Assembly (NCBI GenBank): GCA_021604365.1
Contig: BQIZ01000004.1
Span: 1-55,723 of the forward strand
DNA length: 55,723 bases
Source of the DNA: Nitrospirales bacterium
GTDB taxonomy: Bacteria > Nitrospirota > Nitrospiria > Nitrospirales > UBA8639
Reading direction: 5' to 3'
Shown here: positions 17,571 through 37,003 of the stretch, in pieces
Layout: each line of letters opens with the position of its first letter
Numbering within the stretch: position 1 is the first letter of the stretch
Made by a program: the position numbers and the translations under genes
Notes under the pieces: model-generated
What the model was told of the DNA's origin: nothing
The model's input: the letters and a program-made list of their open reading frames with translations, nothing else
Database searches by the model: none

Positions 17571-20500
17571 ATGAACGCCGCAGAGCAACAGCTTAATAAT
17601 GTTCGGAAACTCAGACGAAGTGAAGGCCATGGTTGGCTGATACTTCTTTTTAAGGTCATGGTTGGGGCGGGTATGTTGTTACCCACCTTCGCGTTGCCAA
17701 CAGTATGGGCCGAAAATGTCCCCGATGTGGTTGGGTTGAGTCAGGCCGCGGCGCAGTCGGCCATTACGGGAGCGGGCCTGACGATAGGGACCATCACGAG
17801 CAGCAGTCATGCGTCGGTTCCGTCGGGGAGTGTGATCAGTCAAACGCCGGGAGGCGGCACGAGTGTGGCGGCAGGCAGTGCGGTAAGCCTGGTGGTATCA
17901 ACGGGCCCGGCGCCGGTGACGGTGCCGAATGTGGTGGGGACCACGCAGGGGGCGGCGCAGACGGCCATTACGGGAGCGGGCCTGACGGTAGGAACCATCA
18001 CGAACAGCAGTCATGCGTCGGTCCCGTCGGGGAGTGTGATCAGTCAAACGCCGGGAGGCGGCACGAGTGCGGCGGCGGGCAGTGCGGTAAACCTGGTGGT
18101 GTCGACGGGCCCGGCGCCGGTGACCGTCCCGAATGTAGTGGGGACCACGCAGGGGGCGGCGCAGTCGGCGGTCACCAAGGCGGGCCTGAAAGTGGGGACC
18201 ATCACGAACAGCAGTCATGCCTCGGTGGGATCGGGCAAGGTCATCAGTCAAACGCCGGGAGCCGGCGCGAGTGTGGCGGCAGGTAGTGCGGTAAGCCTGG
18301 TGGTATCAACGGGCCCGGCGCCGGTGACGGTGCCGAATGTGGTGGGGACCACGCAGGCCGCGGCGCAGACGGCGGTCACCAAGGCGGGCCTGAAAGTGGG
18401 GACCATCACGAACAGCAGTCATGCCTCGGTGGGATCGGGCAAGGTCATCAGTCAAACGCCGGGAGCCGGCACGAGTGCGGCGGCGGGCAGTGCGGTAAAC
18501 CTGGTGGTGTCGACGGGGCCGGCGGTGCCGAAGGTCGTGGGGAGCACCCAGGCGGCGGCCCAAACCGCTATTACCACGGCAGGGTTGAAGCTGGGCACGG
18601 TGATCTCGAGGAACAGTCAGACAGTCCCTATTGGGAGGGTCATTAGTCAGACTCCGGCACCAGGAACCAAGGTGGTGGCAGGTAGTGTTGTGAACCTGGT
18701 CGTCTCCCTTGGAGCCGCAGTGCCGAATGTGGTGGGCTTGCCGCAGGCCGCCGCGCAATCCGCCATTACCGGTGCAGGCTTGAAGGTAGGGACGGTGACG
18801 AAAGCAAAGAGTGCGACCGTGGCGATTGGTTCGATCAACAGTCAAAATCCGACAGCGGGGAGCAATGTGGCGGCGGGCAGTGTGGTTGATCTAGTGGTAT
18901 CGCTAGGGGCTCAGATACCGAATGTGGTGGGATTAAAACAGGCTTCGGCCAAAGAAGCCCTTACCACGGCTGGGCTAACGGTGGGAATTGTGACGACGGC
19001 CATTAGTGCCACGGTGCCGATTGGTGACGTTATGAGTCAAAAGCCGGGCGCAGGGACCAATGTGGATCCAGGAAGTGCAGTAGCCCTGGTTATATCGTCC
19101 GGGCAGCCGGTTTTTCTCATGGGCGTGCAAAATGATCCCAAGACCGGACCACTCGTAAACAGCCTTTACCGGCTTCGCACTGATGGGGTGGTAACCAAAA
19201 TTGGAGATCTGACGCATCGCACGCATGGCTTGGCCTATGTCGGGACCACGTTGTATTCCCTCGAGGAACTGTCTCTTTCTCCACAGCCAGGGGCTCCGCT
19301 GAATTTGTATCAGTTGAATCCGGGGAGCGGTGCTTCGCTGGCCAAGATCCCCCTGTCGTTGTCCACAGGCGAATCAGTAGAGGGCGGGCGAGGGCTGGCC
19401 ACGGAGCCCGGAACGAATCAGCTATGGGGCTTACTCGTGGTCAGATCCGAAGCAAATAATATCCGCCGGTTAGTGACGATTGATCCGACGACGGGCCTGG
19501 CGACCCAAAAGGCCAAACTCTTCGGAAACTTTATGGACCTGGTCTTTGATGAGGCTGGAACGCTCTATGCGATCACGGACAATCGGCCGGTGCCAAGGGG
19601 GGCCAACGTAATGCCGGCCAGAATTTATACAGTGAATAAGACGACGGGGGCCACAACGGAATTCCTGGATGTTTCGGCCGGCGCCGTGGCGGGGCAATCG
19701 AATTTTCGAGAAAGTGAAACGATTGGGGTCGGACCTTCATCCGACCTATTGTATCATCTCTCCGGTCAGCATAAGGTAACCCCAGGATTCACCAAGAATA
19801 TTTTGTTTGAATCGATCAATCTGACCACGAAAGTCAGAAAGGCGATGGCGATCATGGGCCCCGACTTTTTTGTGACAACAGCCTTGACCATGGTGCCACC
19901 CACAGGTCCTCCGGCCTTGGGAGACCTGGATGCGTCGGGCACGGCCGATCTGATCTGGCGCAATCAGAATGATGGCAGCACCGCAATCTGGTTGATGAAC
20001 GGAACAACGATCGCCGCCTCAGGCTTTCCAGGGGGGGTGCCGAAGGTTTGGCAGATTGCGGGCGTAGGCGATGTCAATGGCGATGGTAAGGCAGACGTCA
20101 TCTGGCGAAATGGTTCGAGTGGCACGGTAGCCGTGTGGTTGATGAACGGGGTGTCGGTGACATCTGTGGGCTTTCCCGGAAGCACGTCGACAGCGTTTGA
20201 GATTGCCGGGGTGGGCGATGTCAATGGCGATGGCAAAGCCGACCTGGTCTGGCGGAACACCAATGATGGCAGCACGGCCATTTGGTTGATGAACGGGACC
20301 GCTATTGCTTCCTCCGGTTTTCCGGGCGGAGTGTCTTTGGCCTGGCAAATCGAGGGCGTGGGCGATGTGAATGGGGACGGTAATGCCGATGTCATTTGGC
20401 GCAATGGAATCAATGGGGGAGTGGCTGTGTGGTTGATGAACGGGTTGTCGGTGACGGCAGTAGGTTTTGTCGGAGTCGCTCCAACCGCTTTCGAAATTGC

Positions 20501-20798
20501 CGGCGTGGGCGATGTGAACGGCAATGGCAAGGCGGATCTGATCTGGCGGAATCAGAGTGATGGCAGTACGGCGATCTGGTTAATGAATGGGACCGCCATT
20601 ATCACGGCAGGCTTCCAGGGTGGAGTCCCCGTAGCCTGGAAAATTTCTCAAGTCGGTGATGTGAATGGGGATGGCAATGCCGATGTTATCTGGCGTAATG
20701 ATAAGAGTGCCATCGTGGCCGTCTGGCTGATGAACGGGTTGTCAATTTCAACCGTGGGTTTCCCTGGCTCTGCTCCCTCAGATTGGGAAATTCAGTAG
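17571..20798 (+). CDS. Secreted PASTA-array / propeller-like / FG-GAP repeat protein, paralogue 1 (7 PASTA, 6 FG-GAP-like)
   Basis: ATG at 17571 preferred over the TTG at 17565; signal peptide ending PTVWAENV; PASTA modules VPNVVGTTQGAAQ.AITGAGLTVGTIT...VISQTPGGG; C-terminal GVGDVNGDGKADVIWRN repeats. Confidence 0.95.
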   Translation: MNAAEQQLNNVRKLRRSEGHGWLILLFKVMVGAGMLLPTFALPTVWAENVPDVVGLSQAAAQSAITGAGLTIGTITSSSHASVPSGSVISQTPGGGTSVAAGSAVSLVVSTGPAPVTVPNVVGTTQGAAQTAITGAGLTVGTITNSSHASVPSGSVISQTPGGGTSAAAGSAVNLVVSTGPAPVTVPNVVGTTQGAAQSAVTKAGLKVGTITNSSHASVGSGKVISQTPGAGASVAAGSAVSLVVSTGPAPVTVPNVVGTTQAAAQTAVTKAGLKVGTITNSSHASVGSGKVISQTPGAGTSAAAGSAVNLVVSTGPAVPKVVGSTQAAAQTAITTAGLKLGTVISRNSQTVPIGRVISQTPAPGTKVVAGSVVNLVVSLGAAVPNVVGLPQAAAQSAITGAGLKVGTVTKAKSATVAIGSINSQNPTAGSNVAAGSVVDLVVSLGAQIPNVVGLKQASAKEALTTAGLTVGIVTTAISATVPIGDVMSQKPGAGTNVDPGSAVALVISSGQPVFLMGVQNDPKTGPLVNSLYRLRTDGVVTKIGDLTHRTHGLAYVGTTLYSLEELSLSPQPGAPLNLYQLNPGSGASLAKIPLSLSTGESVEGGRGLATEPGTNQLWGLLVVRSEANNIRRLVTIDPTTGLATQKAKLFGNFMDLVFDEAGTLYAITDNRPVPRGANVMPARIYTVNKTTGATTEFLDVSAGAVAGQSNFRESETIGVGPSSDLLYHLSGQHKVTPGFTKNILFESINLTTKVRKAMAIMGPDFFVTTALTMVPPTGPPALGDLDASGTADLIWRNQNDGSTAIWLMNGTTIAASGFPGGVPKVWQIAGVGDVNGDGKADVIWRNGSSGTVAVWLMNGVSVTSVGFPGSTSTAFEIAGVGDVNGDGKADLVWRNTNDGSTAIWLMNGTAIASSGFPGGVSLAWQIEGVGDVNGDGNADVIWRNGINGGVAVWLMNGLSVTAVGFVGVAPTAFEIAGVGDVNGNGKADLIWRNQSDGSTAIWLMNGTAIITAGFQGGVPVAWKISQVGDVNGDGNADVIWRNDKSAIVAVWLMNGLSISTVGFPGSAPSDWEIQ
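17718..19109 (+). repeat. Seven tandem PASTA modules (68,68,68,65,65,65,65 aa)
   Basis: Module boundaries read at each VPxVVG start; 464 codons fit exactly. Confidence 0.9.
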
Positions 20799-20951
20799 GA
20801 ACGAATCCCGAGCTGATCCGTTTACCAGGCTCATAGGAAAAAATGGAACGCGTAATTTTTCACATGGTGCATTTAGATTAAATATCATTTTTCTCTTGCT
20901 CCTGATCAGGTATCCTTCTGTCACTTAGTTTAATCCACGACCGGTCCCCCT

Positions 20952-23900
20952 ATGAATGTGATGAAGGTTCAGCACCAAACAGGGTTGAATCTAACCCCTC
21001 AAAGGTTACAAAGATGTCACAAGTTGATATTTTTGTGGCTGCCGGTTTTCGTAAGCCTCGTTTTCCTCACCTTTATTTTCCCAGCGACAGCAAGTGCCGT
21101 AGAAGTTCCTAACTTAATCGGGACTCCACAGGCTACGGCAGAGTCAGATATTACGAGCCTCGGTCTCACCGTGGGAGTTGTGACGGCGGCCATTAGTGGT
21201 GGGGTGCCCATTGGCAATGTCATCAGTCACGATCCGGCGGCCGGGATCAATGTAGTTCCAGGAAGTCAGGTGGACTTCGTGATTTCCGGAGTGGCGGTGC
21301 CGACTGTGGTGGCGTTGGCAGAGGTTGCGGCCCAAACCGAAATTATAGATGTGGGTCTCTCGGTAGGTACGGTGACGACGGCCAATAGTGCCACGGTGCC
21401 GATTGGGAACGTCATCAGTCAGAATCCGGCGGCCGGGACAATTGTGTTTCAGGGTAATGCAGTGGCCTTTGAGGTGTCTCTGGGTATTGCGGTACCGAAT
21501 GTGGTGGGCTTACCCCAAGGCACGGCACAATCGGCGATTACCGGTGCCAGTCTGACGGTGGGCACGGTGACGATGGCCAATAGCCCGACGGTGCCCATTG
21601 GGAACGTCATCAGTCAAAATCCCGTGGCAGGAACCAATCTGGAAGCGGGCAGTGCGGTGGCCTTGCTGGTGTCCCTGGGCGCCTCGGTGCCGAATGTGGT
21701 GGGCTTGGCGCAGTCGGCCGCTCAAACAGCAATTACCAATGCGGGTCTCACAGTGGGCACGGTGACATCGGCTAATAGTGCCACCGTACCTATTGGGAAC
21801 GTCATCAGTCAAAATCCCGTGGCCGGGGGCAATGTGGCACCAGGCAGTACCGTTGCCTTTGAGGTGTCCCTGGGTACCTCGGTGCCAAATGTGGTGGGCT
21901 TGGCGCAGTCGGCCGCACAAACAGCAATTACCAATGTTGGTTTGACGCTTGGGGCCATAACGCACGCTAATCATGCCTCAGTCCCTGCCGGGAATGTCAT
22001 CAGTCAGAATCCAGGGGCCGGAAATAATGTGGCGCCAGGTAGCGCAGTGGCGTTGGTGGTGTCCCTGGGGCCGGCGGTGCCGAATGTCGTGGGCTTGACG
22101 CAGGCTGCGGCGCAAACGGCGATAACCTCGGCGGGTTTGACGGTGGGTACGATAAACTCGACTGACAGTCAGACTGTGGCCATCGGAAGAGTCATCAGTC
22201 AAACTCCCTCGCCGGGAACCAGTGTGACAGCGGGCACTGCGGTGAACTTGGTGGTTTCCCTTGGTACTGCGGTTCCGAATGTGGTGGGCCTGGCGCAAGC
22301 GGCTGCCGAGACGGCGATTACTAATGTCGGTTTGATAGTGGGCACCGTCACGCAGGCCGGAAGTGCGACGGTGTCCGCGGGTAATGTCATCAGTCAGAAT
22401 CCAGGGGCCGGAAATAATGCGGCGCCAGGTAGCGCAGTGGCGTTGGTGGTGTCCCTGGGGCCGGTGGTGCCGAATGTGGTGGGCTTGACGCAGGCGGCGG
22501 CGCAAACGGCGATAACCTCGGCCGGTTTGACGGTGGGCACCTTAACAACTTCCACGAGTGCCACGGTGCCCATTGGGAGGGTCATCAGTCAAACCCCCGC
22601 GTCAGGAACCAGTGTGACAGCGGGCAGTGCAGTGAACATGGTCGTCTCCCTTGGCGCCGCCGTGCCGAATGTCGTGGGTTTGGCGCAGGCGGCCGCGCAA
22701 ACCGCCATAACCGGTGCGGGCTTGACGGTGGGGACGGTGACGACCGCCACGAGTCCAACGGTGGCAATAGGCGCCGTCATCAGTCAAAATCCCATAGCGG
22801 GCGCCAATGTGGCACCGGGCAGTGCGGTGAACCTGGTGGTTTCGTTAGGAGCCCAGGTGCCCGATGTTGTGGGCTTGACGCAGGGCATAGCTCAGACGGC
22901 TTTGATCACGGCGGGCCTGATAGTAGGGACGGTGACGCCAGTTTTTAGCGACACGATCCCCCTCGGAAATGTGATCAGTCAAAATCCCACAGCAGGGACG
23001 AAGGTAGCACCGGGCAGTTCGGTGGCCCTGGAGATTTCATCCGGACCCCCGGCTTTTCTCATGGGCGTGCAAAATGATTCCCGTACCGGACCGCTGGTGA
23101 ATAGCCTCTATCGCCTTCGCACCGATGGGGTGGTGACTAAAATCGCAGATCTGACGCACCGCACGCATGGCTTGGCGTTTGTTGGATCTATGTTGTATTC
23201 CGTCGAAGAGTTGACGCTTGCGCAACAGACTGGAACTCCGCCGAAGATGTTTCGGCTCAATCCCGACACCGGTGCCACGCTGGCTACGATCTCCCTGTCG
23301 TTGTCCACGGGCGAATCGTTAGAGGGCGGGCGTGGGCTGGCCACGGAACCTGGGACCAATCAGCTGTGGGGGTTGCTCGTGGTCACGTCCGAAGTGAACA
23401 ATGCCCGCCGGTTAGTGACGATTAATCCGACGACGGGCCTGGCGACCCAAAAGGCCAAACTGTTTGGAAACTTTATGGACTTGGCCTTTGATGCGGACGG
23501 GGTGCTTTATGCGATTACGGATAACCGATCGGTGTCCGGGGTAGCCGTGAATCCGGCCAGAATTTATACGGTGAATAAGACGACGGGGGCCGCGACGGAA
23601 TTCCTGGATGTCTCGGCCGGCGCGGTGGCCGGCCAACCGAATTTTCGAGAAAGTGAAACGATTGGGGTGGGGACTTCATCGGACCTGCTGTATCATATCT
23701 CCGGGCAGCATAAGGTGACCTCAGGATTTACGAAGAATATTCTGTTTGAAACGATCAATCTGAATAATAAAGCCAGAAACGAGATAACGCTTACGGGGCC
23801 GGACTTTTTTGTGACGACGGCATTGACCTTGGTGCCACCCATGAGTCCGAGCCTTTCAACCTTGGGAGATCTGGATGCGTCTGGTACGACCGACCTGGTT

Positions 23901-24734
23901 TGGCGAAACACCGCTGATGGCAGTACGGCGATCTGGTTGATGAACGGAACGAGAATCGCCGGTGCCGGCTTTCCAGGCGGGGTGCCGTTGGCTTGGCAGA
24001 TCGAGGGGGTGGGCGATGTGAACGGCGATGGCAAGGCGGATATCATCTGGCGAAATGCCACCGGCACGGTGGCCGTGTGGTTGATGAACGGGGTGTCGGT
24101 GACGTCCGTGGGCTTTCCCGGAAGCACGTCGATAGCGTTTGAGATTGCGGGGGTGGGCGATGTGAATGGCGATGGCAAAGCCGACCTGGTCTGGCGCAAC
24201 ACGACTGATGGGAGTACCGCCATCTGGTTGATGAATGGGACCGCTATTGCGGCTTCCGGTTTTCCGGGCGGGGTGCCGCTGGCTTGGCAAATTGCGGGTG
24301 TAGGCGATGTCAATGGCGATGGCAAGGCGGATATCATCTGGCGGAATGCCACTGGCACGGTGGCCGTCTGGCTGATGAACGGATTTAGTATCCTGGGGGT
24401 CGGCTTTTCCGGTAGTGCTTCAACGGCGTTTGAGGTTGCCGGGGTGGGCGATGTCAACGGGGATGGCAAAGCCGACCTGGTCTGGCGCAACCAGAGTGAT
24501 GGGAGTACGGCGATCTGGTTAATGAATGGGACCGGCATTGCCATGGCGGGTTTCCCTGGCGGAGTGCCATTAGCATGGAAAGTTTCTCAAGTTGGTGATG
24601 TGAATGGGGACGGCAAGGCGGATGTCATCTGGCGGAATGCCACTGGCACGGTGGCCGTCTGGCTGATGAACGGGTTGTCAATTTCCACTGTGGGGTTCCC
24701 TGGTTCGGCTTCCTCAGTCTGGGAGATTCAGTAG
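20952..24734 (+). CDS. Secreted PASTA-array / propeller-like / FG-GAP repeat protein, paralogue 2 (10 PASTA, 6 FG-GAP-like)
   Basis: Signal peptide ending FPATASAVEV; ten VPxVxx...VISQ modules; GDVNGDGKAD(I/L/V)(V/I)WRN x6; ends WEIQ. Confidence 0.95.
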   Translation: MNVMKVQHQTGLNLTPQRLQRCHKLIFLWLPVFVSLVFLTFIFPATASAVEVPNLIGTPQATAESDITSLGLTVGVVTAAISGGVPIGNVISHDPAAGINVVPGSQVDFVISGVAVPTVVALAEVAAQTEIIDVGLSVGTVTTANSATVPIGNVISQNPAAGTIVFQGNAVAFEVSLGIAVPNVVGLPQGTAQSAITGASLTVGTVTMANSPTVPIGNVISQNPVAGTNLEAGSAVALLVSLGASVPNVVGLAQSAAQTAITNAGLTVGTVTSANSATVPIGNVISQNPVAGGNVAPGSTVAFEVSLGTSVPNVVGLAQSAAQTAITNVGLTLGAITHANHASVPAGNVISQNPGAGNNVAPGSAVALVVSLGPAVPNVVGLTQAAAQTAITSAGLTVGTINSTDSQTVAIGRVISQTPSPGTSVTAGTAVNLVVSLGTAVPNVVGLAQAAAETAITNVGLIVGTVTQAGSATVSAGNVISQNPGAGNNAAPGSAVALVVSLGPVVPNVVGLTQAAAQTAITSAGLTVGTLTTSTSATVPIGRVISQTPASGTSVTAGSAVNMVVSLGAAVPNVVGLAQAAAQTAITGAGLTVGTVTTATSPTVAIGAVISQNPIAGANVAPGSAVNLVVSLGAQVPDVVGLTQGIAQTALITAGLIVGTVTPVFSDTIPLGNVISQNPTAGTKVAPGSSVALEISSGPPAFLMGVQNDSRTGPLVNSLYRLRTDGVVTKIADLTHRTHGLAFVGSMLYSVEELTLAQQTGTPPKMFRLNPDTGATLATISLSLSTGESLEGGRGLATEPGTNQLWGLLVVTSEVNNARRLVTINPTTGLATQKAKLFGNFMDLAFDADGVLYAITDNRSVSGVAVNPARIYTVNKTTGAATEFLDVSAGAVAGQPNFRESETIGVGTSSDLLYHISGQHKVTSGFTKNILFETINLNNKARNEITLTGPDFFVTTALTLVPPMSPSLSTLGDLDASGTTDLVWRNTADGSTAIWLMNGTRIAGAGFPGGVPLAWQIEGVGDVNGDGKADIIWRNATGTVAVWLMNGVSVTSVGFPGSTSIAFEIAGVGDVNGDGKADLVWRNTTDGSTAIWLMNGTAIAASGFPGGVPLAWQIAGVGDVNGDGKADIIWRNATGTVAVWLMNGFSILGVGFSGSASTAFEVAGVGDVNGDGKADLVWRNQSDGSTAIWLMNGTGIAMAGFPGGVPLAWKVSQVGDVNGDGKADVIWRNATGTVAVWLMNGLSISTVGFPGSASSVWEIQ
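21105..23051 (+). repeat. Ten tandem PASTA modules (64 + 9 x 65 aa)
   Basis: 649 codons fit exactly from VPNLIG to SSGPP. Confidence 0.9.
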
Positions 24735-25030
24735 ATATGAATTTCGGTCGGTTGGGGACACCAGACCACTGTGTTGAGAGGCTGGCACGCGTAAACCTCT
24801 TCATGTTACAATGAGATTTATTTTTCCTTGCTCCTGATGAGTCATCTTTTAGTCACCTAATTTACTACACGACCGAACCCTCCCCCATTGCAGAAACAAC
24901 GAATTCCCCTTCTTTAAATTCAACGAAATAAGCAATAAGAACCCATGGGGCAGGTGCATGCGGCGGCCTAAACAGGCGAGCCCTGTTCGCCGTGTAATGG
25001 GCTCGATTCTTGCTGAATGGAGTTAACGAC

Positions 25031-28000
25031 ATGAACGTGATGAAAGTTCTGCACCAGAATGGATTGAATCCTAATTTGACCTGCCAGAAATTGGAAAAAG
25101 GTTTCACGTCGATCCTTTTGCGCCTGGTGGTTCTCGTGAGTCTGCTTTTCCTCACCTGTGCCTTACCGGCGACGGCAAGAGCCGAAGAGGTCCCTAATGT
25201 TGTCGGAAGTCTACAAGCCACAGCAGAGGCGGCTATTACCAGCACCAATCTGTTAGTGGGGGTCGTGACGCCGGTCAATAGCCCCGCGGTGCCCATCGGC
25301 ACGGTCATCAGTCAAGATCCAGCGGCCGGAATCAATGTGGTCCCTGGCAGTCCTGTGGACCTCGTGATATCCGGAGTGACCGTGCCGGATGTGGTGGGAT
25401 TGGCGCAAACTGTGGCCCAAACCGCCATTTCGGCAGCAGGTCTCACGGTGGGAGCAGAGTCGACAGTCAATAGTGGGTCGGTGCCCATTGGTGACGTTAT
25501 TAGTCAAACGCCCGCAGCAGGGACCAATGTGTTGCCGGGTAATGCCGTAACCCTGGTGGTGTCCCTGGGTACAGCCGTGCCGGATCTGGTTGGAATGTCC
25601 CAGTCGGCGGCAGAAACGGCAATTACCACGGCCAACCTGACCGTGGGACCGGTAACGACGGCTACCAGTACGACGCTGCCGGCGGGCGCGGTCATCAGTC
25701 AATCCCCGGCAGCGGGGAGCAATGTCCCGCCGGGTAGTGCGGTGACGCTTGTCGTGTCCCTTGGGGCCAAAGTACCCGATGTGGTGGGGTTGACCCAGGC
25801 CGCTGCAGATACCGCCCTCACCAAGGCGGGCTTGACGCTTGGAGCGGTGACGACGGCCACCAGTGAGACGGTGCCCGCGGGAACCGTCATCAGTCAATCT
25901 CCGGTGGCCGAGTCAAATGTAGCTCCAGGAACCGCCGTGACCTTGGTGGTATCCCTGGGGGTGGTGGTGCCAAAGGTGGTGGGCTTGACACAAGCCGCAG
26001 CGGAATCGGCGATTACCACGGCAAGCCTGACGGTAGGCAGGGTAACGAAGGCCAATAGCCCTAGCGTTGCGGCCGGCAGGGTCATTAGTCAGAATCCGGC
26101 GGCTGAGGCTAAGGTGGAGGCCGGCAGTGCTGTGGATTTGGTGGTGTCCCTTGGGGCCAAGGTGCCCAATGTCGTCGAGATTTCAAAGGGTAGTGCGCAA
26201 ACAGCTTTGAGTTCAGCCGGGCTGAAAGTTGGTAAGGTGACCTCGGCCAACAGTCAAACTGTGGCCATAGGTAATGTAATCAGTCAAGATCCGACATCCG
26301 GGTCTAATGTGGCCCCAGGCAGTGCGGTCGATCTGGTGGTTTCCCTGGGGACGGCGGTACCCACTGTGGTAAATAAATCACAAACTGCGGCGCAAACGGC
26401 CATTACCAACGTAGGGTTGACTGTGGGGAATGTGACATCGGTTTTTAGCGAGACGGTTCCTATCGGAAACGTAACCAGTCAAAATCCCAAAGGTGGGGAG
26501 AATGTGGACCCAGGTAGTTCCGTCGAAATTGTAATTTCCTCCGGCCCACCGGTTCTCCTCATGGGTGTGCAAAATGATCCCAAGACCGGGCCTCTGGTGA
26601 ATAGTCTCTACCGCCTTCGTACCGATGGGGTAGTGACCAAAATTGGGGATCTGAAGCACCGCACGCATGGCTTGGCCTATGTCGGGGCCAACTTGTATTC
26701 CGTAGAGGAGCTGACGCTTGCGAAACAGACAGGGATCCCGCCGAATCTGTATCGGCTCAATCCCAGCACTGGGGCCACCTTAGCTACCATTCCCTTATCG
26801 TTGTCCACAGGTGAGTCCTTAGAGGGTGGGCGCGGGCTGGCCACGATGCCTGGGACCAACCAATTATGGGCCTTGCTCGTGGTCACGTCTGAAGTGAATA
26901 GTTTCCGGCGCTTGGTGACGATTAATCCGACGACCGGGCTGGCCACGCAAATAGCGAAACTCTCCGGAAACTTCATGGACCTGGCCTTTGATGCCGCTGG
27001 GACACTTTATGCGATTACGGATAACCGACCGGTATCCGGGGGAGCCGTGGCGCCGGCCCGGATTTATACGCTGAATAAGACGACCGGCGCTCCAACGGAA
27101 TTCCTGAATGTCTCGGCTGGCGCGGTGGCCGGCCAACCGAATTTCCGAGAGAGTGAGACCATAGGGGTAGGGTCGTCGCCAGATCTACTCTATCATCTCT
27201 CCGGGCAGCATAAGGTGACCTCTGGATTTACCAAAAATATTTTGTTTGAGCAGATCCATCGAACCACGAAGGCCAGAACGGCAATTGCGCTCACGGGCCC
27301 GGACTTTTTTGTGACAACGGCCTTGACGTTGGTGCCACCCACGAATTCGAATTCGAGTACAGGTCCTCCGGCTTTGGCCGATCTGGATGCGTCCGGCACG
27401 ACTGATCTGATCTGGCAAAACACCCAAGATGGCAGCACGGCCATCTGGCTGATGAATGGAACGACGATCGCAGCGACCGGCTTTCCAGGCGGAGTTCCGG
27501 CGGTCTGGCGGATTGCGGGTGTGGGCGATGTGAACGGCGATGGCAAGGGTGATGTTATCTGGCGCAGTGGTAAGAGTGGCACGGTAGCGGTGTGGTTGAT
27601 GAATGGAGTGTCGGTGATGTCCGTAGGTTTTCCCGGAAGTGCGTCGACAGCGTTTGAGATATCCGGTGTGGGCGATGTGAATGGCGATGGGAAAGCCGAC
27701 CTGGTCTGGCGCAACACGACTGATGGGAGTACCGCCATCTGGCTGATGAACGGAACGAAAATTGCGGCCCCTGGTTTTCCGGGTGGGGTACCGGTAGGCT
27801 GGCAAATCGCGGGGGTGGGCGATGTGAATGGGGATAGTAAGTCGGATGTCATCTGGCGCAATGGGGCGAGTGGCACGGTGGCCGTGTGGCTGATGAACGG
27901 ATTAGGTATTGCGGGGGTCGGCTTTCCCGGAAGTGCCTCCCCGGCGTTTGAGGTTTCGGGCGTGGGTGATGTCAATGGTGATGGGAAAGCCGACCTGGTC

Positions 28001-28255
28001 TGGCGCAACACGACTGATGGGAGTACCGCCATCTGGCTGATGAACGGAACGAAAATTGCGGCCCCTGGTTTTCCGGGTGGGGTACCGGTAGCGTGGCAAA
28101 TTTCTCAAGTCGGCGATGTGAATGGGGATGGCATGGCTGATGTCATCTGGCGCAATGGCTCGAGTGGGACCGTGGCCATCTGGCAAATGAATGGGGTTTC
28201 GATTTCGAACGTTGGGTTCCCGGGCTCCGCCCCATCCGACTGGGAAATTCAGTAG
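25031..28255 (+). CDS. Secreted PASTA-array / propeller-like / FG-GAP repeat protein, paralogue 3 (7 PASTA, 6 FG-GAP-like)
   Basis: ATG 25031 (MNVMKVLHQNGLN) aligns with paralogue 2 start MNVMKVQHQTGLN; signal peptide ending LPATARAEEV; 7 PASTA modules; ends WEIQ. Confidence 0.94.
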   Translation: MNVMKVLHQNGLNPNLTCQKLEKGFTSILLRLVVLVSLLFLTCALPATARAEEVPNVVGSLQATAEAAITSTNLLVGVVTPVNSPAVPIGTVISQDPAAGINVVPGSPVDLVISGVTVPDVVGLAQTVAQTAISAAGLTVGAESTVNSGSVPIGDVISQTPAAGTNVLPGNAVTLVVSLGTAVPDLVGMSQSAAETAITTANLTVGPVTTATSTTLPAGAVISQSPAAGSNVPPGSAVTLVVSLGAKVPDVVGLTQAAADTALTKAGLTLGAVTTATSETVPAGTVISQSPVAESNVAPGTAVTLVVSLGVVVPKVVGLTQAAAESAITTASLTVGRVTKANSPSVAAGRVISQNPAAEAKVEAGSAVDLVVSLGAKVPNVVEISKGSAQTALSSAGLKVGKVTSANSQTVAIGNVISQDPTSGSNVAPGSAVDLVVSLGTAVPTVVNKSQTAAQTAITNVGLTVGNVTSVFSETVPIGNVTSQNPKGGENVDPGSSVEIVISSGPPVLLMGVQNDPKTGPLVNSLYRLRTDGVVTKIGDLKHRTHGLAYVGANLYSVEELTLAKQTGIPPNLYRLNPSTGATLATIPLSLSTGESLEGGRGLATMPGTNQLWALLVVTSEVNSFRRLVTINPTTGLATQIAKLSGNFMDLAFDAAGTLYAITDNRPVSGGAVAPARIYTLNKTTGAPTEFLNVSAGAVAGQPNFRESETIGVGSSPDLLYHLSGQHKVTSGFTKNILFEQIHRTTKARTAIALTGPDFFVTTALTLVPPTNSNSSTGPPALADLDASGTTDLIWQNTQDGSTAIWLMNGTTIAATGFPGGVPAVWRIAGVGDVNGDGKGDVIWRSGKSGTVAVWLMNGVSVMSVGFPGSASTAFEISGVGDVNGDGKADLVWRNTTDGSTAIWLMNGTKIAAPGFPGGVPVGWQIAGVGDVNGDSKSDVIWRNGASGTVAVWLMNGLGIAGVGFPGSASPAFEVSGVGDVNGDGKADLVWRNTTDGSTAIWLMNGTKIAAPGFPGGVPVAWQISQVGDVNGDGMADVIWRNGSSGTVAIWQMNGVSISNVGFPGSAPSDWEIQ
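25190..26551 (+). repeat. Seven tandem PASTA modules
   Basis: 454 codons (64 + 6 x 65) from VPNVVGSLQ to SSGPP. Confidence 0.9.
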
Positions 28256-28390
28256 ACATTGGTGAGACCCCAACTCCAACCGGCACATTCATACGTACGG
28301 AATTTACCCTCATCTCCGGTCCTGCCAATAAATAACGTAGAGGAAGGTATTAAGGGAGGTATCCATGGAAAGGCCAGTGCACACGAGAGT

Positions 28391-31267
28391 ATGAAATTAA
28401 ACTTCTGTGATGTCATAATGTTTAGTCAATTGTTGCCGTATGGAACACACAACGTGGACGCACTGCAAATTCAGCCTCATGGCGGCTTGAACCTGGCTCG
28501 CCGCGCCACCTGTCGAAGACTCAATTCATTCGTTTTCCAACTGGGAGTTCTGGTATGTCTGCTGTTCCTCACCTGTGCCATGCCTATGACCGCAAGGGCT
28601 GTAGAAGTCCCCAATGTAGTGGGGAGCACACAAGCTAAGGCTGAGGAGACCATTACCAAAGCCAATCTGAGGGTGGGAACTGTCACTTCGGCGAAGAGTG
28701 TGACCATCCTGCCGGGTACCATTATCAGTCAAGATCCGGCAGCAGGCATTAATGTGGTTCGACGCAGTCGGATCGATCTGGTGGTTTCAGGAGTGGAGGT
28801 CCCTGACGTCGTTGGCCGGAAACAAGCTGACGCCCAAAAGGATCTGACTAAAGCAGGCTTAATTATAGGAAGTGTGACGACGGTCAATAGTTCCGTCGTG
28901 GCGGAGGGGAGGGTCATCAGTCAAACTCCCACCGCCGGAACCAAAGGGGCATTTGGCAGTCCGGTGGACCTGGTAGTGTCTCTGGGCGCCAGAGTACCGA
29001 ATGTGGTGGGGTTGACGCAGGCGAAGGCACAATCGGTGATTACTACGGCCGGTTTTACCGTGGGAGCAGTCACGACGGCCATTAATCTCACAGTGGCACC
29101 GGGCAAGGTTATTAGTCAGAAACCTGGTGCCGGAACCAAGGCGGCGGCGGGCACTGCCGTGGCCCTGGTTGTGTCCCTTGGGGCAAAGGTTCCCAATGTC
29201 GTTGGTCTTGCCCAAGCTGACGCCCAGAAGGCCATTACCACCGCGGGCTTAACTGTGGGGACGGTGACGATGACCAATAGTGCCGGGGTGGCGGTGGGTA
29301 AAGTCATTAGTCAAAACCCATTGGCGGGCACGAATGTGGTGCCCGGTAATGCCGTAGGGCTTGTCGTGTCGTTGGGGACCGCCGTGCCCGATGTCGTAGG
29401 CTTGACACAGAGCAGTGCTCAAACGACCCTGATCGGCGCAGGCTTAACTGTTGGGACCGTGACGGGGGCAAATAGCGAGACGGTGCCTACCGGCACCGTC
29501 ATCAGTCAAATACCCGGAGCAGGAATAAAATTGACCCCGGGTAGTTCGGTTGCCCTGGTTATTTCTTCAGGACCCCCGGTATTTCTTCTTGGCGTACAAA
29601 ATGATCCCAAGACCGGGCCGCTCGTAAATAGCCTCTACCGCCTTCGCACCAATGGGGTGGTGTCCAAAATTGCGGATCTGACGCACCGCACGCACGGTCT
29701 GGCCTTTGTCGGGTCCACCCTGTATTCCGTGGAAGAGCTGACGCTTGCGAAACAGGCAGGGACCCCGCCGAATCTGTATCGGCTTCATCCCGACACCGGC
29801 GCCCAGTTGGGCAGGATTCCCCTGTCGTTATCGACGGGGGAATCTCTAAAGGGTGGGCGAGGGCTGGCCACGGAGCCTGGGACAGGACAACTATGGGGCT
29901 TGCTGGTGGTGACATCGGAAGTGAATAGTTTCCGCCGGTTGGTGACGATTAATCCATCGACGGGCCTGGCCACGCAAAAGGCCAAATTGTTTGGAAATTT
30001 TATGGATCTGGCCTTTGATGCGGCCGGGACGCTCTATGCGATCACGGATAACCGACCGGTGCCCGGGGGGGCGCCCGTGTTACCCGCCCGGATTTATACG
30101 GTGGATAAGACGACAGGCACTGCCACCGAATTTCTAGATGTTTCGGCCGGGGCAGTGGCTGGACAACCGAATTTTCGAGAAAGTGAAACGATTGGGATCG
30201 GGCCTACGTCGGATCTGCTGTATCATCTTTCCGGGCAGCATAAGGTGACCTCTGGATTTTCCAAAAACATTCTGTTTGAAGCGATTCAACAGACCACCAA
30301 AGCCAGAACCGCAATTCCGCTTGCAGGCCAGGACTTTTTTGTCACGACGGGCTTGACGTTGGTGCCAATCAGGACTGCTCCGGCCCTGGGAGATCTTGAT
30401 GCCAATGGCAAAGCGGATCTGGTTTGGCGCAATACCTCCGATGGCAACACGGCCATCTGGTTGATGAATGGAACGACGATCGCGGCCTCAGGCTTTCCAG
30501 GTGGGGTGCCGGCGGCCTGGCAGATCGCTGGTGTGGGGGATGTGAACGGCGATGGCAAGGCAGATGTCATTTGGCGAAATGGTTCGAGTGGAGGTGTGGC
30601 CGTGTGGCTGATGGACGGGTTAACCATTCTCTCCACAGGATTTCCTGGTAGTGCATCGCTGGGGTTTCGGATCATGGGGGTGGGCGATGTGAATGGGGAT
30701 GGCAAGGCGGACCTGGTTTGGCGCAACACGACCGATGGGAGTACGGCGATCTGGTTGATGAATGGGACGGCCATTGCCGCCTCCGGCTTCCCTGGTGGGG
30801 TGCCGGAGACATGGCAAATTGCCGGGGTTGGGGATGTGAATGGGGATAACCGGGCCGATGTCATTTGGCGGAATGGCACCAGTGGGAGTGTGGCCATGTG
30901 GCTAATGAACGGGTTATCGGTGACAGGCGTGGGCTTTCCCGGAAGTGCGTCGACAGCGTTTGAGATCATGGCAGTGAGCGATGTGAACGGGGATGACAAG
31001 GCGGACCTGGTTTGGCGCAACACGACTGATGGGAGTACGGCGATCTGGTTGATGAATGGGACGGCCATTGCCGCCTCGGGTTTTCCTGGCGGGGTACCAG
31101 CTGTTTGGCAACTGGCAGAGGCGCGGGATGTAAACGGGGATGGCAAGGCGGATGTTATTTGGCGAAATAGGACGAATGGGACGGTAGCGGTGTGGCTGAT
31201 GAACGGCCTGACTATTTCCGCCGTGGGCTTCCCGGGATCGACCTCCACAGATTGGGAGATTCAGTAA
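28391..31267 (+). CDS. Secreted PASTA-array / propeller-like / FG-GAP repeat protein, paralogue 4 (5 PASTA, 6 FG-GAP-like); start codon uncertain
   Basis: ORF is open from 28259; ATG 28391 or 28415-28430 region more plausible; signal peptide ending MPMTARAVEV; 5 PASTA modules; ends WEIQ. Confidence 0.92.
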   Translation: MKLNFCDVIMFSQLLPYGTHNVDALQIQPHGGLNLARRATCRRLNSFVFQLGVLVCLLFLTCAMPMTARAVEVPNVVGSTQAKAEETITKANLRVGTVTSAKSVTILPGTIISQDPAAGINVVRRSRIDLVVSGVEVPDVVGRKQADAQKDLTKAGLIIGSVTTVNSSVVAEGRVISQTPTAGTKGAFGSPVDLVVSLGARVPNVVGLTQAKAQSVITTAGFTVGAVTTAINLTVAPGKVISQKPGAGTKAAAGTAVALVVSLGAKVPNVVGLAQADAQKAITTAGLTVGTVTMTNSAGVAVGKVISQNPLAGTNVVPGNAVGLVVSLGTAVPDVVGLTQSSAQTTLIGAGLTVGTVTGANSETVPTGTVISQIPGAGIKLTPGSSVALVISSGPPVFLLGVQNDPKTGPLVNSLYRLRTNGVVSKIADLTHRTHGLAFVGSTLYSVEELTLAKQAGTPPNLYRLHPDTGAQLGRIPLSLSTGESLKGGRGLATEPGTGQLWGLLVVTSEVNSFRRLVTINPSTGLATQKAKLFGNFMDLAFDAAGTLYAITDNRPVPGGAPVLPARIYTVDKTTGTATEFLDVSAGAVAGQPNFRESETIGIGPTSDLLYHLSGQHKVTSGFSKNILFEAIQQTTKARTAIPLAGQDFFVTTGLTLVPIRTAPALGDLDANGKADLVWRNTSDGNTAIWLMNGTTIAASGFPGGVPAAWQIAGVGDVNGDGKADVIWRNGSSGGVAVWLMDGLTILSTGFPGSASLGFRIMGVGDVNGDGKADLVWRNTTDGSTAIWLMNGTAIAASGFPGGVPETWQIAGVGDVNGDNRADVIWRNGTSGSVAMWLMNGLSVTGVGFPGSASTAFEIMAVSDVNGDDKADLVWRNTTDGSTAIWLMNGTAIAASGFPGGVPAVWQLAEARDVNGDGKADVIWRNRTNGTVAVWLMNGLTISAVGFPGSTSTDWEIQ
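28607..29578 (+). repeat. Five tandem PASTA modules
   Basis: 324 codons (64 + 4 x 65) from VPNVVGSTQ to SSGPP. Confidence 0.9.
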
Positions 31268-31364: not shown

Positions 31365-34300
31365 TTACTGATAGGACTTGGCGCACCGCATGCCAATGTA
31401 AGGACTTTTCTTTTCAGGATTTTCTCGCGCCCGATAGGTTGACCGGGCAAAAATTGAACTCACACTCCAGGATCCTCCACGATGCACTTTCATGGCCCCG
31501 GAGTCCGGTCCGCTGGGATTGTGGACGAGGCTCGGTTGACTCTCGTAGGGGGAATACCAATCGAAGACCCACTCGGATACATTTCCAGCCATGTCATGAA
31601 CGCCAAATGGGCTGACTCCATTCGAGAATGTTCCAACTTCTAACGGACCGGCTTTTCCTCGATCCAAAGCCGTTTGCATCCAATCAGCCCATTTGGCAAT
31701 GGATAAAAATGGTTTCCCTGCCCAATAATCCGCTGTGTTGGTTCGTTGAGGATCCCACGTATTTCCCCAAGGGTAGGCATAGCCTTGAGGTCCCCTGGCA
31801 GCCAGTTCCCATTCTGCCTCGGTGGGGAGGCGTTTTCCCGACCAGGTGCAATAGGCCGTCGCATCATACCAGGTCACTCCGAGGACCGGATGGTCTGGTT
31901 GGTGAAATCGTTCATTCTCCCAAAATGCGGGGGCGTCCCGACCTGTGGATTCAAGAAATTCACGGTAGCGGCGATAGCTGACCTCATATTGATCAATATA
32001 ATAGGCATTGAGGCTTACCTGACGTTGAGGTATTTCTGCTTGAAAGGCATTGAACTGGACTCCTGCAAAATCTTTCAGAAAGCCGGAAATTTGGTCCTCG
32101 GTACTTCCCATCCTAAATTCTCCTGCGGGAATCAAGATCATGGGGTCGGCCTTCTTGCCTGACAGGGCGGACTGAACAGTATCCGGTAAATCGTGTTGAT
32201 GTAGCCGTGCTTCAAGGACAGCCTCAGGTTGAGATCCGATCGGTTGATCGCTGGTCACTGGCTGTGAGTCAGGGGACGTATTGAACATATTCTCAAAAAA
32301 TCCGAAAAACCCGGAACTCTCGTTCGGGGGTGAATTAACCACAGGAGGAGTGAAAGCGGGAACGGTCCCAGGTGATGGCGATCTTTCAGGAAGAGTCGCT
32401 GACTGATTGTTTCCACCATCTGGAACAATCTGTGGTTGCGCAACTTTCTCCTCTAGTTCCTTACGCTCCTTTTCCGCAGCGACTCGACGTCGCTCTTCTT
32501 CCAAAGCTGCCAGGCGACGCGCTTCCGCAGCTTCCTGGCGTTGTTGTTCTTCGGCGGCGAGTCGGGCCTTTCTGGCATTCAAGGCGGCCTCTTCCTTCAG
32601 TCGAGCGACTCGGTCTCGCTCTTCTTCCAGGGCTGCCAGGCGACGCGCTTCTGCGGCTTGGCTGCGTTGTTGCTCTTCGGCGGCGAGTCGTGCTTGTTCG
32701 GCTTTTAATGCGGCTTCCTCCTTCAACCGAGCTTGTTCGGCCGCCATTCGTTGGGCTTCGGCCAGTTGGGCCTGGCGCGTTTGTTCCTGCCTGGCCAAAG
32801 CCACCTTGCGTTCCTGTTCTTCGGCCGCCATTCGTTGGGCTTCGGCCAGTTGGGCCTGGCGCGTTTGTTCCTGCCTGGCCAAAGCTTCCTTGCGTTCCTG
32901 TTCTTGGGCCGCGACTCGTTGGGCTTCGGCCAGCTGGGCCTGGCGCGTTTGTTCCTGCCTGGCCAAAGCCGCCTTGCGTTCCTGTTCTTCGGCCGCGACT
33001 CGTTGGGCTTCGGCCAGTTGAGCCTGGCGTATTTGTTCCTGTTTGGCCAAGGCCTCTTGGCGTCGCTGTTCCTCGGCCATTCGTCGGGCTTCAGCCAGTT
33101 GCATTTGACGCGTGAGTTCTCGTTGGGCCAACGCCTCTTTCCGCCGCTGTTCCTCGGCCTCAACTCTGGCCTGTTCTTCGGCCATTCGTCGGGCTTCAGC
33201 CAGTTGAGCTTGACGTGTGAGTTCTTGTTGCGCCAAGGCTTGTTTTCGTCTCTCTTCCTCCTCGGCCAGTCTGGCCTGTTCGGCTTCCGCTCGCCGTCGT
33301 TCCTCTTCGGCTACCATTCGCTGGGCTAGGGCCAGTTGAGTTTGAAGTTCTCGTTCTTGTTTTGCCAAGAGTTGTTTGCGTCGCTCCTCCTCAGCTGCGA
33401 GCTTGGCTTGTTGGGCTTCTAACTCGGCCTGTCGTTGAGCTAGGAGGATCGCTTGTTCGTGACGGGCCTTTTCCGCGGCTACCCGTCGCCGTTCTTCCTC
33501 CGCGGCCACCCGTTTAGCTTCGGCGAGTTGTGCTAAGGCCAGTTGGCGTTGTTCTTCCTCCGCGGCCACCCTGGCTTGTTGGGCTTCTAACGCGGCTTCT
33601 TGTTGAGCAAGGAGGGTCTCCTTTTCCTGGCGGGCCCGTTCGGCTGCCACCCTCCGCCGCTCTTCCTCGGCCTCCAGGCGTTGGGCTTCGGCCAGTTGGG
33701 CTAGCCGAGTTCGTTCTTGTTCCGCCAATTTTTTTCTTCTTTGTTCCTCTTCTTCGGCCACCCTGGCTTGTTCGGCCTTTAATTCAGCTTGTTGTTGAGC
33801 CAACAGGGCCGCTTGTTCCTGGCGGGCCTGTTCGGCTGCCACCCTCCGCTGCTCTTCCTCGGCCGCCAGGCGTTGGGCTTCGGCCAGTTGTGCTTGAAGT
33901 TCTTTCTCTCGCTGTCGCTGTTCCTTCAACGTTTGGAGAGCCTGTAGTTCAAACTTTTCACGTTCTGCCTCTAGCGTGGCAGCCTCTTCTGCCAAGGATT
34001 TTTGTTTTTGAGCTTGCTCACTCTTTTCAGATGGTACCTTGTTATTGAAGACATCCAAGGGATTTCCAAAGCTCTTTAAGAGTCCGACAATTGTCTCGAT
34101 CGTCCCTGATACAGGATTGCTTGTACCTCCTTGGCGAATTGGGTTGTTCGCAATTTGAGACCCGGAGGATTTTTTTTCCGGAATAAATACAAATTCTCCC
34201 TTATCCGGACTTAACCCCCACATTTCCGGTCTTTGCGCATGTTTATGGGTGAGAGCGGCCGATTGCACGTGCTCATCAAGAAAGGTGAAGAGTTCGGATG

Positions 34301-35207
34301 TGGGAATGATGCCATCGCCGTTCAGATCCCCACGGCCTTTCCCGATGCCTTCCAGAAGATAATAGGTGAACACACTATGTTTCCACTTCGGTCCGGCTAA
34401 GGCTTGTTGCCCGGTTCCTCCTGCCGTTATCAATTGGCGGGCAGGTTCACTGGTAATCATCTCCAGATAATGACCGGTCATTGGGGGAAACGAACGCTGA
34501 TTCCGGCCGGCAATGCCTCCATAACAAATATCAATGAGAAATAAAACCTGTTTTGCCGGAAGGGCCTCAGAAAGTTCACGAAGAATCTCCACGCTGATTG
34601 CCGTGTCTGGGAGAAGGCCAGGTTCGGTATCGACGGGCATCATATAGCCCACCGGTTGTTGCCTTTTCTTGCCTGGAGTTTCTCCAATATGACCCGCAAA
34701 AAAGATAAGTACCCGATCATCTTTTTGTACCCGGGCAAGAAGGTTCTGGCGCAACTCGCGGAGTATTGCCGTTCTGGTGGCTTGGGTGTTGTAAAGTGAT
34801 GTGACCCCAAATCCCTGCCCCTCGAGCATACGGGCCACGGATTTCGCATCATCGACCGCATAGGCCAGACCGGCGAGATTCAGATATTTATCAATTCCTA
34901 TGATGACAGCCCAGGCATTTCCCTGAGTCTCGGCTACATGTTGGGCAGGAGTTTTTCCGTTCACCGTATTGCTTCGTGGATCTGCCTGCGCCTGTACCGG
35001 GAGGACCAATGTGATCAAGGCGAATACCAAGAAAGTGAGGAGAAAGAAGCGGGGATGGGCAAGAAATCCTCTCCTCGGAATGGGATTATCTAAAACGGAA
35101 TCAAACACGGGGCACCGGCTCCTGTGACGTATGCTAATTTTATTCAAGAAAATTCTCAGAATAAAACAGACAATGGGCAACTCTTTTTTTGCCTCAGATT
35201 TTCTCAA
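31365..35207 (-). CDS. Caspase-like (peptidase C14) domain, long coiled coil, C-terminal FGE-sulfatase (SUMF1/C-type-lectin-like fold) domain
   Basis: AWAVIIGIDKYLNLAGLAYAVDDAKSVARML; His in LIFFAGHIGE; Cys in LFLIDICYGGIAG; about 500 aa of Q/E/A/R coiled coil; DPMILIPAGEFRMGSTED...VTWYDATAYCTWSGKRLPTEAEWELAARG...VHRGGSWSV...IGMRCAK. Start codon uncertain (signal peptide begins about 50 aa into the ORF). Confidence 0.93.
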   Translation of the reverse strand: MRKSEAKKELPIVCFILRIFLNKISIRHRSRCPVFDSVLDNPIPRRGFLAHPRFFLLTFLVFALITLVLPVQAQADPRSNTVNGKTPAQHVAETQGNAWAVIIGIDKYLNLAGLAYAVDDAKSVARMLEGQGFGVTSLYNTQATRTAILRELRQNLLARVQKDDRVLIFFAGHIGETPGKKRQQPVGYMMPVDTEPGLLPDTAISVEILRELSEALPAKQVLFLIDICYGGIAGRNQRSFPPMTGHYLEMITSEPARQLITAGGTGQQALAGPKWKHSVFTYYLLEGIGKGRGDLNGDGIIPTSELFTFLDEHVQSAALTHKHAQRPEMWGLSPDKGEFVFIPEKKSSGSQIANNPIRQGGTSNPVSGTIETIVGLLKSFGNPLDVFNNKVPSEKSEQAQKQKSLAEEAATLEAEREKFELQALQTLKEQRQREKELQAQLAEAQRLAAEEEQRRVAAEQARQEQAALLAQQQAELKAEQARVAEEEEQRRKKLAEQERTRLAQLAEAQRLEAEEERRRVAAERARQEKETLLAQQEAALEAQQARVAAEEEQRQLALAQLAEAKRVAAEEERRRVAAEKARHEQAILLAQRQAELEAQQAKLAAEEERRKQLLAKQERELQTQLALAQRMVAEEERRRAEAEQARLAEEEERRKQALAQQELTRQAQLAEARRMAEEQARVEAEEQRRKEALAQRELTRQMQLAEARRMAEEQRRQEALAKQEQIRQAQLAEAQRVAAEEQERKAALARQEQTRQAQLAEAQRVAAQEQERKEALARQEQTRQAQLAEAQRMAAEEQERKVALARQEQTRQAQLAEAQRMAAEQARLKEEAALKAEQARLAAEEQQRSQAAEARRLAALEEERDRVARLKEEAALNARKARLAAEEQQRQEAAEARRLAALEEERRRVAAEKERKELEEKVAQPQIVPDGGNNQSATLPERSPSPGTVPAFTPPVVNSPPNESSGFFGFFENMFNTSPDSQPVTSDQPIGSQPEAVLEARLHQHDLPDTVQSALSGKKADPMILIPAGEFRMGSTEDQISGFLKDFAGVQFNAFQAEIPQRQVSLNAYYIDQYEVSYRRYREFLESTGRDAPAFWENERFHQPDHPVLGVTWYDATAYCTWSGKRLPTEAEWELAARGPQGYAYPWGNTWDPQRTNTADYWAGKPFLSIAKWADWMQTALDRGKAGPLEVGTFSNGVSPFGVHDMAGNVSEWVFDWYSPYESQPSLVHNPSGPDSGAMKVHRGGSWSVSSIFARSTYRARENPEKKSPYIGMRCAKSYQ
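32741..33076. repeat. 84-bp tandem repeat (28 aa = four heptads), about 4 copies, inside the coiled-coil region
   Basis: ccgcc(a/g)(t/c)tcg-type unit starts at 32741, 32825, 32909, 32993 (exact 84-bp period); encodes LARQEQTRQAQLAEAQR(V/M)AA(E/Q)EQERK. Confidence 0.9.
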
Positions 35208-35728: not shown

Positions 35729-37003
35729 ATGACCTATTGGCTTATGCGGAACTTGGTATGTAGGCGAATTCAGCGGTTGGCCTGTTTCCTTGTGTTGGCA
35801 ATGCTTGTCATCAGTCAATCTGTCACTCAAGCCAAAGATTTAAAGAATGTGATTCCTGATCTTTATGGGGGAAATGGTTTTCAAACAGACCCTAATTTTG
35901 CAGGCAATCGGTCCAATGATTTTGGCAATGCGGTGTTCAATTCATTTAATGAACTGACTAATGGCATTGGGGCTCAAACGGGGCAATTCGCGGTGAACTC
36001 TACCGTGGCGGCGTATCGGTTTGATGTTGAGCGGGGAGTTCCTGTTGAAGTCACCAAAAGCCTCGGTCCACTATTTGCGGAACGAGCCGACACGCTTGGA
36101 AAAGGGCGATTTGATTTCCAGGTTGTCTGGTCAAACGCCAATTACAAAAAATTTAATGGCCAAAAGCTGTCTTCTCTCAGTGAAGATGTCTCTCCGACTG
36201 CCGGGCCGGGAACGCCGCCGAATGCCCCAGGGTTGGATGAGCTATTACAAATTAACCTGGATGTCAAAGTGATTACCAATTTTGTGGGGTTTTTCGGCAC
36301 GTATGGCCTCACGGATAATTGGGACATCAATCTTCTTGTACCTCTCATCAATAACAAGATCAAGGCAAAAGCGAAGGCGACCATGCTTGATGCCAACGGT
36401 GTTCCTTGTAATCAAGGTGGAAATTGTAGTGGTATATACGTGATCAATGGGACGGCACCCGGAACGGGGGACCCTTCAAGAGACAGTTCTTCTGCAGATA
36501 AAACCGGGATCGGAGACGTTCTTCTTCGAACCAAATATAACTTTCTGAAAAATCATGAGATTTTACCTGATTTGGGAGTACGCGGGGGCGTTTCTTTTCC
36601 CACGGGAAATGAAGATAACTTCATGGGAGTCGGAGAATTCAGATTTGAGGGATTGGCTGTGGCTTCTAAATATTATGCATCCCCGATCGGCATGATTGGT
36701 CCCCATGTGAATACGGGCTTTGTGCTCGTCAACAACAAATCAGAACTGAATCTTTTTACCTATGTCGCAGGGTTTGATATTGCGCCTATTCCGGTCTTTG
36801 CTTTCTCTCTCGATCTCCTGGGCCGTCACGAATTAGACGATAAGGATAACAGTGGAAAGGACATCGTCGATTTGGCTCCCGGCCTAAAATGGGCTCCACT
36901 TCCGAACACGCTGGTTCAGGCAGCCGTCCAGCTTCCACTCAATAAAGATGAAGGGCTCCGTCCGGATGCGGTCTGGACACTAGGACTTGGAGGAACGTTC
37001 TAA
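35729..37003 (+). CDS. Outer-membrane channel-like protein (Phenol_MetA_deg/transporter-type beta-barrel)
   Basis: Signal peptide; VTKSLGPLFAERADTLGKGRFDFQVVWSNANYKKFNG...; alternating beta segments; C-terminal WTLGLGGTF. Confidence 0.8.
   Translation: MTYWLMRNLVCRRIQRLACFLVLAMLVISQSVTQAKDLKNVIPDLYGGNGFQTDPNFAGNRSNDFGNAVFNSFNELTNGIGAQTGQFAVNSTVAAYRFDVERGVPVEVTKSLGPLFAERADTLGKGRFDFQVVWSNANYKKFNGQKLSSLSEDVSPTAGPGTPPNAPGLDELLQINLDVKVITNFVGFFGTYGLTDNWDINLLVPLINNKIKAKAKATMLDANGVPCNQGGNCSGIYVINGTAPGTGDPSRDSSSADKTGIGDVLLRTKYNFLKNHEILPDLGVRGGVSFPTGNEDNFMGVGEFRFEGLAVASKYYASPIGMIGPHVNTGFVLVNNKSELNLFTYVAGFDIAPIPVFAFSLDLLGRHELDDKDNSGKDIVDLAPGLKWAPLPNTLVQAAVQLPLNKDEGLRPDAVWTLGLGGTF

Follow-up and report, generated by a model that had tools for sequence, protein, structure and literature searches.

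PASTA modules are usually read as evidence of peptidoglycan sensing. The PASTA Ser/Thr kinases and PBPs (PknB, PrkC/Stk1, and StkP) carry such modules in tandem. Muropeptide binding has been shown for the PASTA regions of kinases (PMC3145798), and the muropeptide preference of PrkC was attributed to Arg500 in PASTA3; an R500A replacement weakens the binding (PMC5786024). A second relevant group is the VCBS/FG-GAP superfamily, including the fungal lectin PVL and the propellers of integrin alpha. Its core members carry a signal peptide and interaction domains, and Ca2+ is bound by loop AB in PVL and integrin (PMC8023676). In this study, four genes combining modules of both kinds were analysed. 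No named family with a PASTA array, a propeller, and six FG-GAP repeats was found in profile and literature searches, just as the initial annotation had supposed. The papers searched on the PASTA domain contained no combination with FG-GAP or with Nitrospira, and wider PASTA architecture searches gave no match. The domains themselves are known, while their combination is new and restricted to one genus. What is novel is how they are combined and how the array lengths behave.

The window is a stretch of 55,723 nucleotides of a Nitrospirales genome (contig BQIZ01000004.1). The features of the four genes are as follows.

17571..20798, + strand: gene 1, with a signal peptide, 7 PASTA modules, propeller 1, and a six-blade FG-GAP cassette; C-terminus ...SAPSDWEIQ
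17715..19097, + strand: PASTA array of gene 1, 7 modules, first spacings 204 bp
19107..19919, + strand: propeller 1 of gene 1, DUF4394/DUF6923-like
19914..20795, + strand: six-blade FG-GAP/VCBS cassette of gene 1
20952..24734, + strand: gene 2, with a signal peptide, 10 PASTA modules, propeller 1, and a six-blade FG-GAP cassette
21099..23039, + strand: PASTA array of gene 2, 10 modules
23049..23843, + strand: propeller 1 of gene 2
23859..24731, + strand: six-blade FG-GAP/VCBS cassette of gene 2
25031..28255, + strand: gene 3, with a signal peptide, 7 PASTA modules, propeller 1, and a six-blade FG-GAP cassette
25187..26542, + strand: PASTA array of gene 3, 7 modules
26549..27340, + strand: propeller 1 of gene 3
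27371..28252, + strand: six-blade FG-GAP/VCBS cassette of gene 3
28454..31267, + strand: gene 4, with a probable GTG start, a signal peptide, 5 PASTA modules, propeller 1, and a six-blade FG-GAP cassette
28601..29569, + strand: PASTA array of gene 4, 5 modules
29576..30388, + strand: propeller 1 of gene 4
30383..31264, + strand: six-blade FG-GAP/VCBS cassette of gene 4

The initial annotation had described four adjacent same-strand genes with a signal peptide, PASTA modules, a conserved domain, six FG-GAP repeats, and a terminal WEIQ. The + strand ORFs, the Pfam matches, and a motif count bear this out, with corrections to the gene starts. For gene 4, GTG 28454 (937 aa) is the most likely start, rather than TTG 28259, since the resulting length agrees with that of the orthologues; the ORF from the TTG is probably over-extended. 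For gene 3, the probable start is ATG 25031. ORFs on the opposite strand within the four genes were rejected as by-products of the repeats, and a promoter and terminator scan performed no better than chance.

It was also correct that the proteins have no kinase, PBP, or transmembrane domain. No kinase or PBP domain was matched by Pfam in any of the four, and a hydropathy scan revealed the N-terminal signal as the sole clear export-type hydrophobic stretch. The remaining peaks lie almost all in Val-rich PASTA strands and are not plausible transmembrane helices. The mature chains of all four proteins contain no cysteine. No anchor (transmembrane helix, lipobox, sortase signal, or outer-membrane anchor signal) was identified in the four proteins, and full release is therefore possible. 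As for the PASTA kinases and PBPs, the likeness is confined to the PASTA fold and its tandem arrangement; the proteins here, with 5-17 modules poor in charges and with neither kinase, PBP, nor transmembrane part, fall outside that family.

The assignment of the PASTA and FG-GAP folds was checked and held, as Pfam E-values far beyond chance, AlphaFold2, and Foldseek agree. The PASTA profile (PF03793) matches 7, 10, 7, and 5 times in genes 1 to 4 (E 1e-102, 1e-123, 4e-94, and 2e-65, respectively), above the curated cut-off. In the full-length AlphaFold2 model of gene 4 (pLDDT 73), five canonical PASTA folds are present, while the arrangement of the domains is unreliable (pTM 0.48). The best Foldseek matches of this model are the PASTA regions of a Staphylococcus aureus kinase and of PknB. 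The protein of gene 3 also scores above the cut-off of PknB_PASTA_kin (NF033483). This identity was rejected as an artefact of many PASTA matches, since nothing of the model outside its PASTA end is covered by the matching stretches.

The FG-GAP and FG-GAP_3 repeats were found in all four proteins (Pfam, E down to 2e-36). Each protein has exactly six blades by motif count, and every blade carries the loop D-x-[ND]-[GA]-[DNS] and the strand W[LQ]M[ND]G; the D-x-[DN]-x-D-G loop is present in strict form in 16 of the 24 blades and in relaxed form in all 24. WEIQ forms the terminal residues of the cassette in all four proteins. The conserved domain of about 265 aa (LMGVQNDPKTGPLVNSLYRLRT...) precedes the cassette, and its copies are 79-84% identical to that of gene 4. 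It had been called propeller-like, and AlphaFold2 modelling of the C-terminal 563 residues (22-row alignment, pLDDT 84) indeed gave two successive all-beta propellers, the second with six four-strand blades. According to this model, the 265-aa domain is the other beta-propeller of each protein. Its similarity to described propellers is partial. DUF4394 (PF14339) scores 22.2 bits against a cut-off of 29.6 (E 1e-4) and DUF6923 (PF21959) 17.9 bits against a cut-off of 27 (E 3e-3), both below the curated threshold. Close copies were found in one genus only: in a collection of genome contigs, the domain occurs in Nitrospirales bacterium NPIRA03 only; among 399 genomes of the phylum, just weak partial matches lie outside the genus; no match was found among plasmids or viral contigs.

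The cassette belongs to the VCBS/FG-GAP superfamily, judging from a profile score above the cut-off, the loop motif, and the propeller fold. It shares with the described members (PMC8023676) export, the blade loop, and the association with interaction domains. It differs in having its six blades as three alternating pairs and in being joined to another propeller and a PASTA array. When the two-propeller model was compared with the PDB, Foldseek returned tandem-propeller proteins, while the nearest folds of the single FG-GAP propeller were the GlcNAc-binding lectins PVL and PAL. For PVL, the TM-score was 0.50 on the target, with 15% identity. A profile search found no sequence relatives of the cassette in the PDB. 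PVL-type lectins have seven blades with a GW sugar-pocket motif, whereas the cassette has six blades and no GW; a W in the blade-to-blade loop is found mainly in alternate blades (W/F). In these points, the cassette departs from the PVL type; as regards sugar and Ca2+ binding, the likeness is one of motifs. Weak matches to TcdB_toxin_midN, PliI, and W_rich_C overlap the FG-GAP blades and were discounted as indications of function.

I consider it somewhat probable that all four are adhesins of the cell surface or the matrix, exported by the Sec route and built of a PASTA rod and a twin-propeller head. The PASTA arrays of 5, 7, 7, and 10 modules would be spacers, each with a defined length. The head, which would bind the ligand, would consist of both C-terminal propellers, and the terminal six-blade propeller, whose D-x-N-G-D-G loops may bind metal, would be a C-terminal module used throughout the genus. 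The surface or matrix location, the binding of metal and glycan, and the role of PASTA as a rod are predictions; the domain content, the predicted folds, the conservation of three arrays by repeat position, the replacement of the stalk in a sister genome, and the wide use of the cassette were observed. This model fits the known features of VCBS propellers, namely the signal-peptide core group and the Ca2+-binding loop AB (PMC8023676). The export by signal peptide and the matrix- or adhesin-like role proposed by the initial annotation are supported.

Do the PASTA arrays bind peptidoglycan? If they did, they would tether the proteins in the periplasm and hold the propellers at the cell wall. The PASTA fold and the best structural matches, which are muropeptide-binding kinase regions (PMC3145798), speak for such a tether. 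So does the finding that no PASTA was detected elsewhere in the genome, where a single Ser/Thr kinase was found. However, the modules are poor in charged residues: the 29 modules pooled contain 3.0% K+R and 3.3% D+E, and the array of gene 2 contains 0.5% K+R, compared with 7.8% K+R for PknB and 15.7% for Stk1 in the aligned kinase PASTA segments. In view of the role of Arg500 in PrkC (PMC5786024), this composition argues, indirectly, against classical muropeptide binding, although another surface of the modules may still bind peptidoglycan. The stalk can also be replaced. In G007, a member of the same genus, no PASTA was detected, and the protein with the propeller pair carries InlB-B repeats instead (PF18998; Flg_new_2, E 7e-37). 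The G007 gene adjoins homologues of the caspase-FGE and beta-barrel-like genes that neighbour the present cluster, and it is therefore the syntenic counterpart. A 2032-aa protein of G005 (L099:3074-9172) has a different kinase-free PASTA architecture, consisting of a DUF7948 domain, an SBBP propeller, InlB-B repeats, six PASTA modules, and a PKD-like domain, so that InlB-B and PASTA are adjacent. The exchange in G007 and the side-by-side modules in G005 both favour PASTA as an interchangeable spacer. Because of the InlB-B repeats at the G007 site and the scarcity of charges, PASTA looks like an exchangeable stalk and not a peptidoglycan sensor. Thus, the earlier view of PASTA as the defining, peptidoglycan-binding part was not sustained, and a periplasmic tether seems unlikely.

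Is the length of the stalk meaningful, given an adhesin with a PASTA rod? The cluster is syntenic in the sister genomes G015, G018, G011, and G020, while G002, G013, and G017 have cluster fragments broken off within the PASTA array. The arrays of genes 2, 3, and 4 have 10, 7, and 5 modules with equal spacings in all five genomes. In these arrays, each repeat pairs best with the repeat at the same position, with one exception. The array of gene 1 is hypervariable, with 7, 6, 14, and 17 modules made of 204-bp units; G015, where the gene ends at the contig end, is left out of this count. The dS of the PASTA regions is 0.14-0.23 against the near relative G015 and 0.64-0.87 in three more distant comparisons, in which omega is 0.14-0.24. 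Overall, omega ranges from 0.14 to 0.30 for PASTA and from 0.05 to 0.16 for the propellers, indicating purifying selection on all parts. If the proteins were simply soluble and secreted, with no specific rod function, the array length would be under neutral drift. The free range of gene 1 from 6 to 17 modules, with a frameshift in two of the assemblies, would fit such drift. It is hardly compatible with genes 2 to 4, which hold their module numbers and their positional orthology in five species despite strong synonymous divergence, and I regard drift as very unlikely. For the adhesin model, a further possibility, put forward tentatively, is that rods of fixed length (5, 7, and 10 PASTA modules) and one variable rod (6-17), all with the same head, form a layered surface or biofilm matrix. 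If so, the stalk type (PASTA or InlB-B) would be interchangeable, and the VCBS cassette would be a genus-wide docking module.

The frameshifts, one inside each of the long 204-bp arrays of G011 and G020 (L084-L087), may be errors of long-read assembly rather than real variation. In G018, genes 2 and 4 (L072 and L078) have the stretch NILFERINLNNQTRTEMELTGPDFF in common, which suggests gene conversion between the paralogues. For both propellers, the copies from five species cluster by gene position and not by species, with group 4 of propeller 1 incompletely resolved. Thus, the duplications are older than these species. The proposed local expansion stands as a cluster of paralogues, but it was not recent.

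The initial annotation also envisaged a dedicated PASTA system. This is too narrow, since FG-GAP cassettes were found in 12 genes of this genome, many of them encoding secreted proteins with no PASTA. The partners include fn3/Ig domains, PD40-like repeats, InlB-B with PKD-like regions, and other N-termini, as well as a metalloprotease-like protein with the motif HEIIHGLG (found by eye). On contig C69, the cassette is borne on an InlB-B array. The finished sister genome G020 has 17 cassette matches and about 16 cassette genes, including those of an SBBP/PKD protein and a purple acid phosphatase. With a threshold of E 1e-30, 15 of the 22 genomes of the genus contain the cassette, and no other relative searched does. 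Thus, the cassette, not PASTA, is the common denominator, and the four genes are members of a larger modular family. The purple acid phosphatase (L127:1087-3345) is an enzyme bearing the cassette at its C-terminus. Another protein, on contig C69 of this genome (L050:6959-8560), ends at a TAG stop about seven residues early (...EFPGSI), leaving the last blade incomplete; the same early end recurs in several sister genomes.

Since many unrelated N-termini, one enzyme included, share a near-constant end (STDWEIQ), the cassette could also serve above all as a signal for secretion or sorting by a dedicated export machine, with the remainder as diverse cargo. This is quite improbable, as the cassette is a full propeller of about 290 aa with metal-loop motifs, its end is the last blade strand, and matches to a GspD-like type II secretin (TIGR02517) in the genome are below the cut-off. 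In line with the adhesin model, the cassette would probably bind its many secreted proteins to one shared ligand outside the cell, a glycan or a component of the matrix.

Two neighbouring genes accompany the cluster.

31365..35207, - strand: convergent neighbour encoding a caspase (Peptidase_C14) domain, a long E/A/Q/R-rich region, and a C-terminal FGE-sulfatase domain
35729..37003, + strand: exported, probably beta-barrel protein with a weak PF13557 (Phenol_MetA_deg) match

The caspase-FGE gene is kept beside the cluster in four sister genomes and in G007. The C-terminal domain of its product is similar to the ORF at 37103-38176. Among the four cluster genomes compared, the beta-barrel-like protein shows 93-97% identity. 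It is present in 12 genomes of the genus, including all with the 265-aa domain or a cluster fragment, and none of the 10 genomes lacking it has the domain. The co-occurrence tracks the clade, and a functional link is thus only suggested.

The exchange for InlB-B repeats and the charge-poor modules argue that PASTA can be a plain spacer, which matters for the annotation of PASTA proteins. Three arrays of fixed length beside a hypervariable one provide a natural system for asking whether selection acts on the length of the rod. By their common C-terminal propeller, about 12-19 secreted proteins per genome form a family in one Nitrospirales genus. This family, whose partners include an enzyme, points to an extracellular system that has yet to be described in this group.
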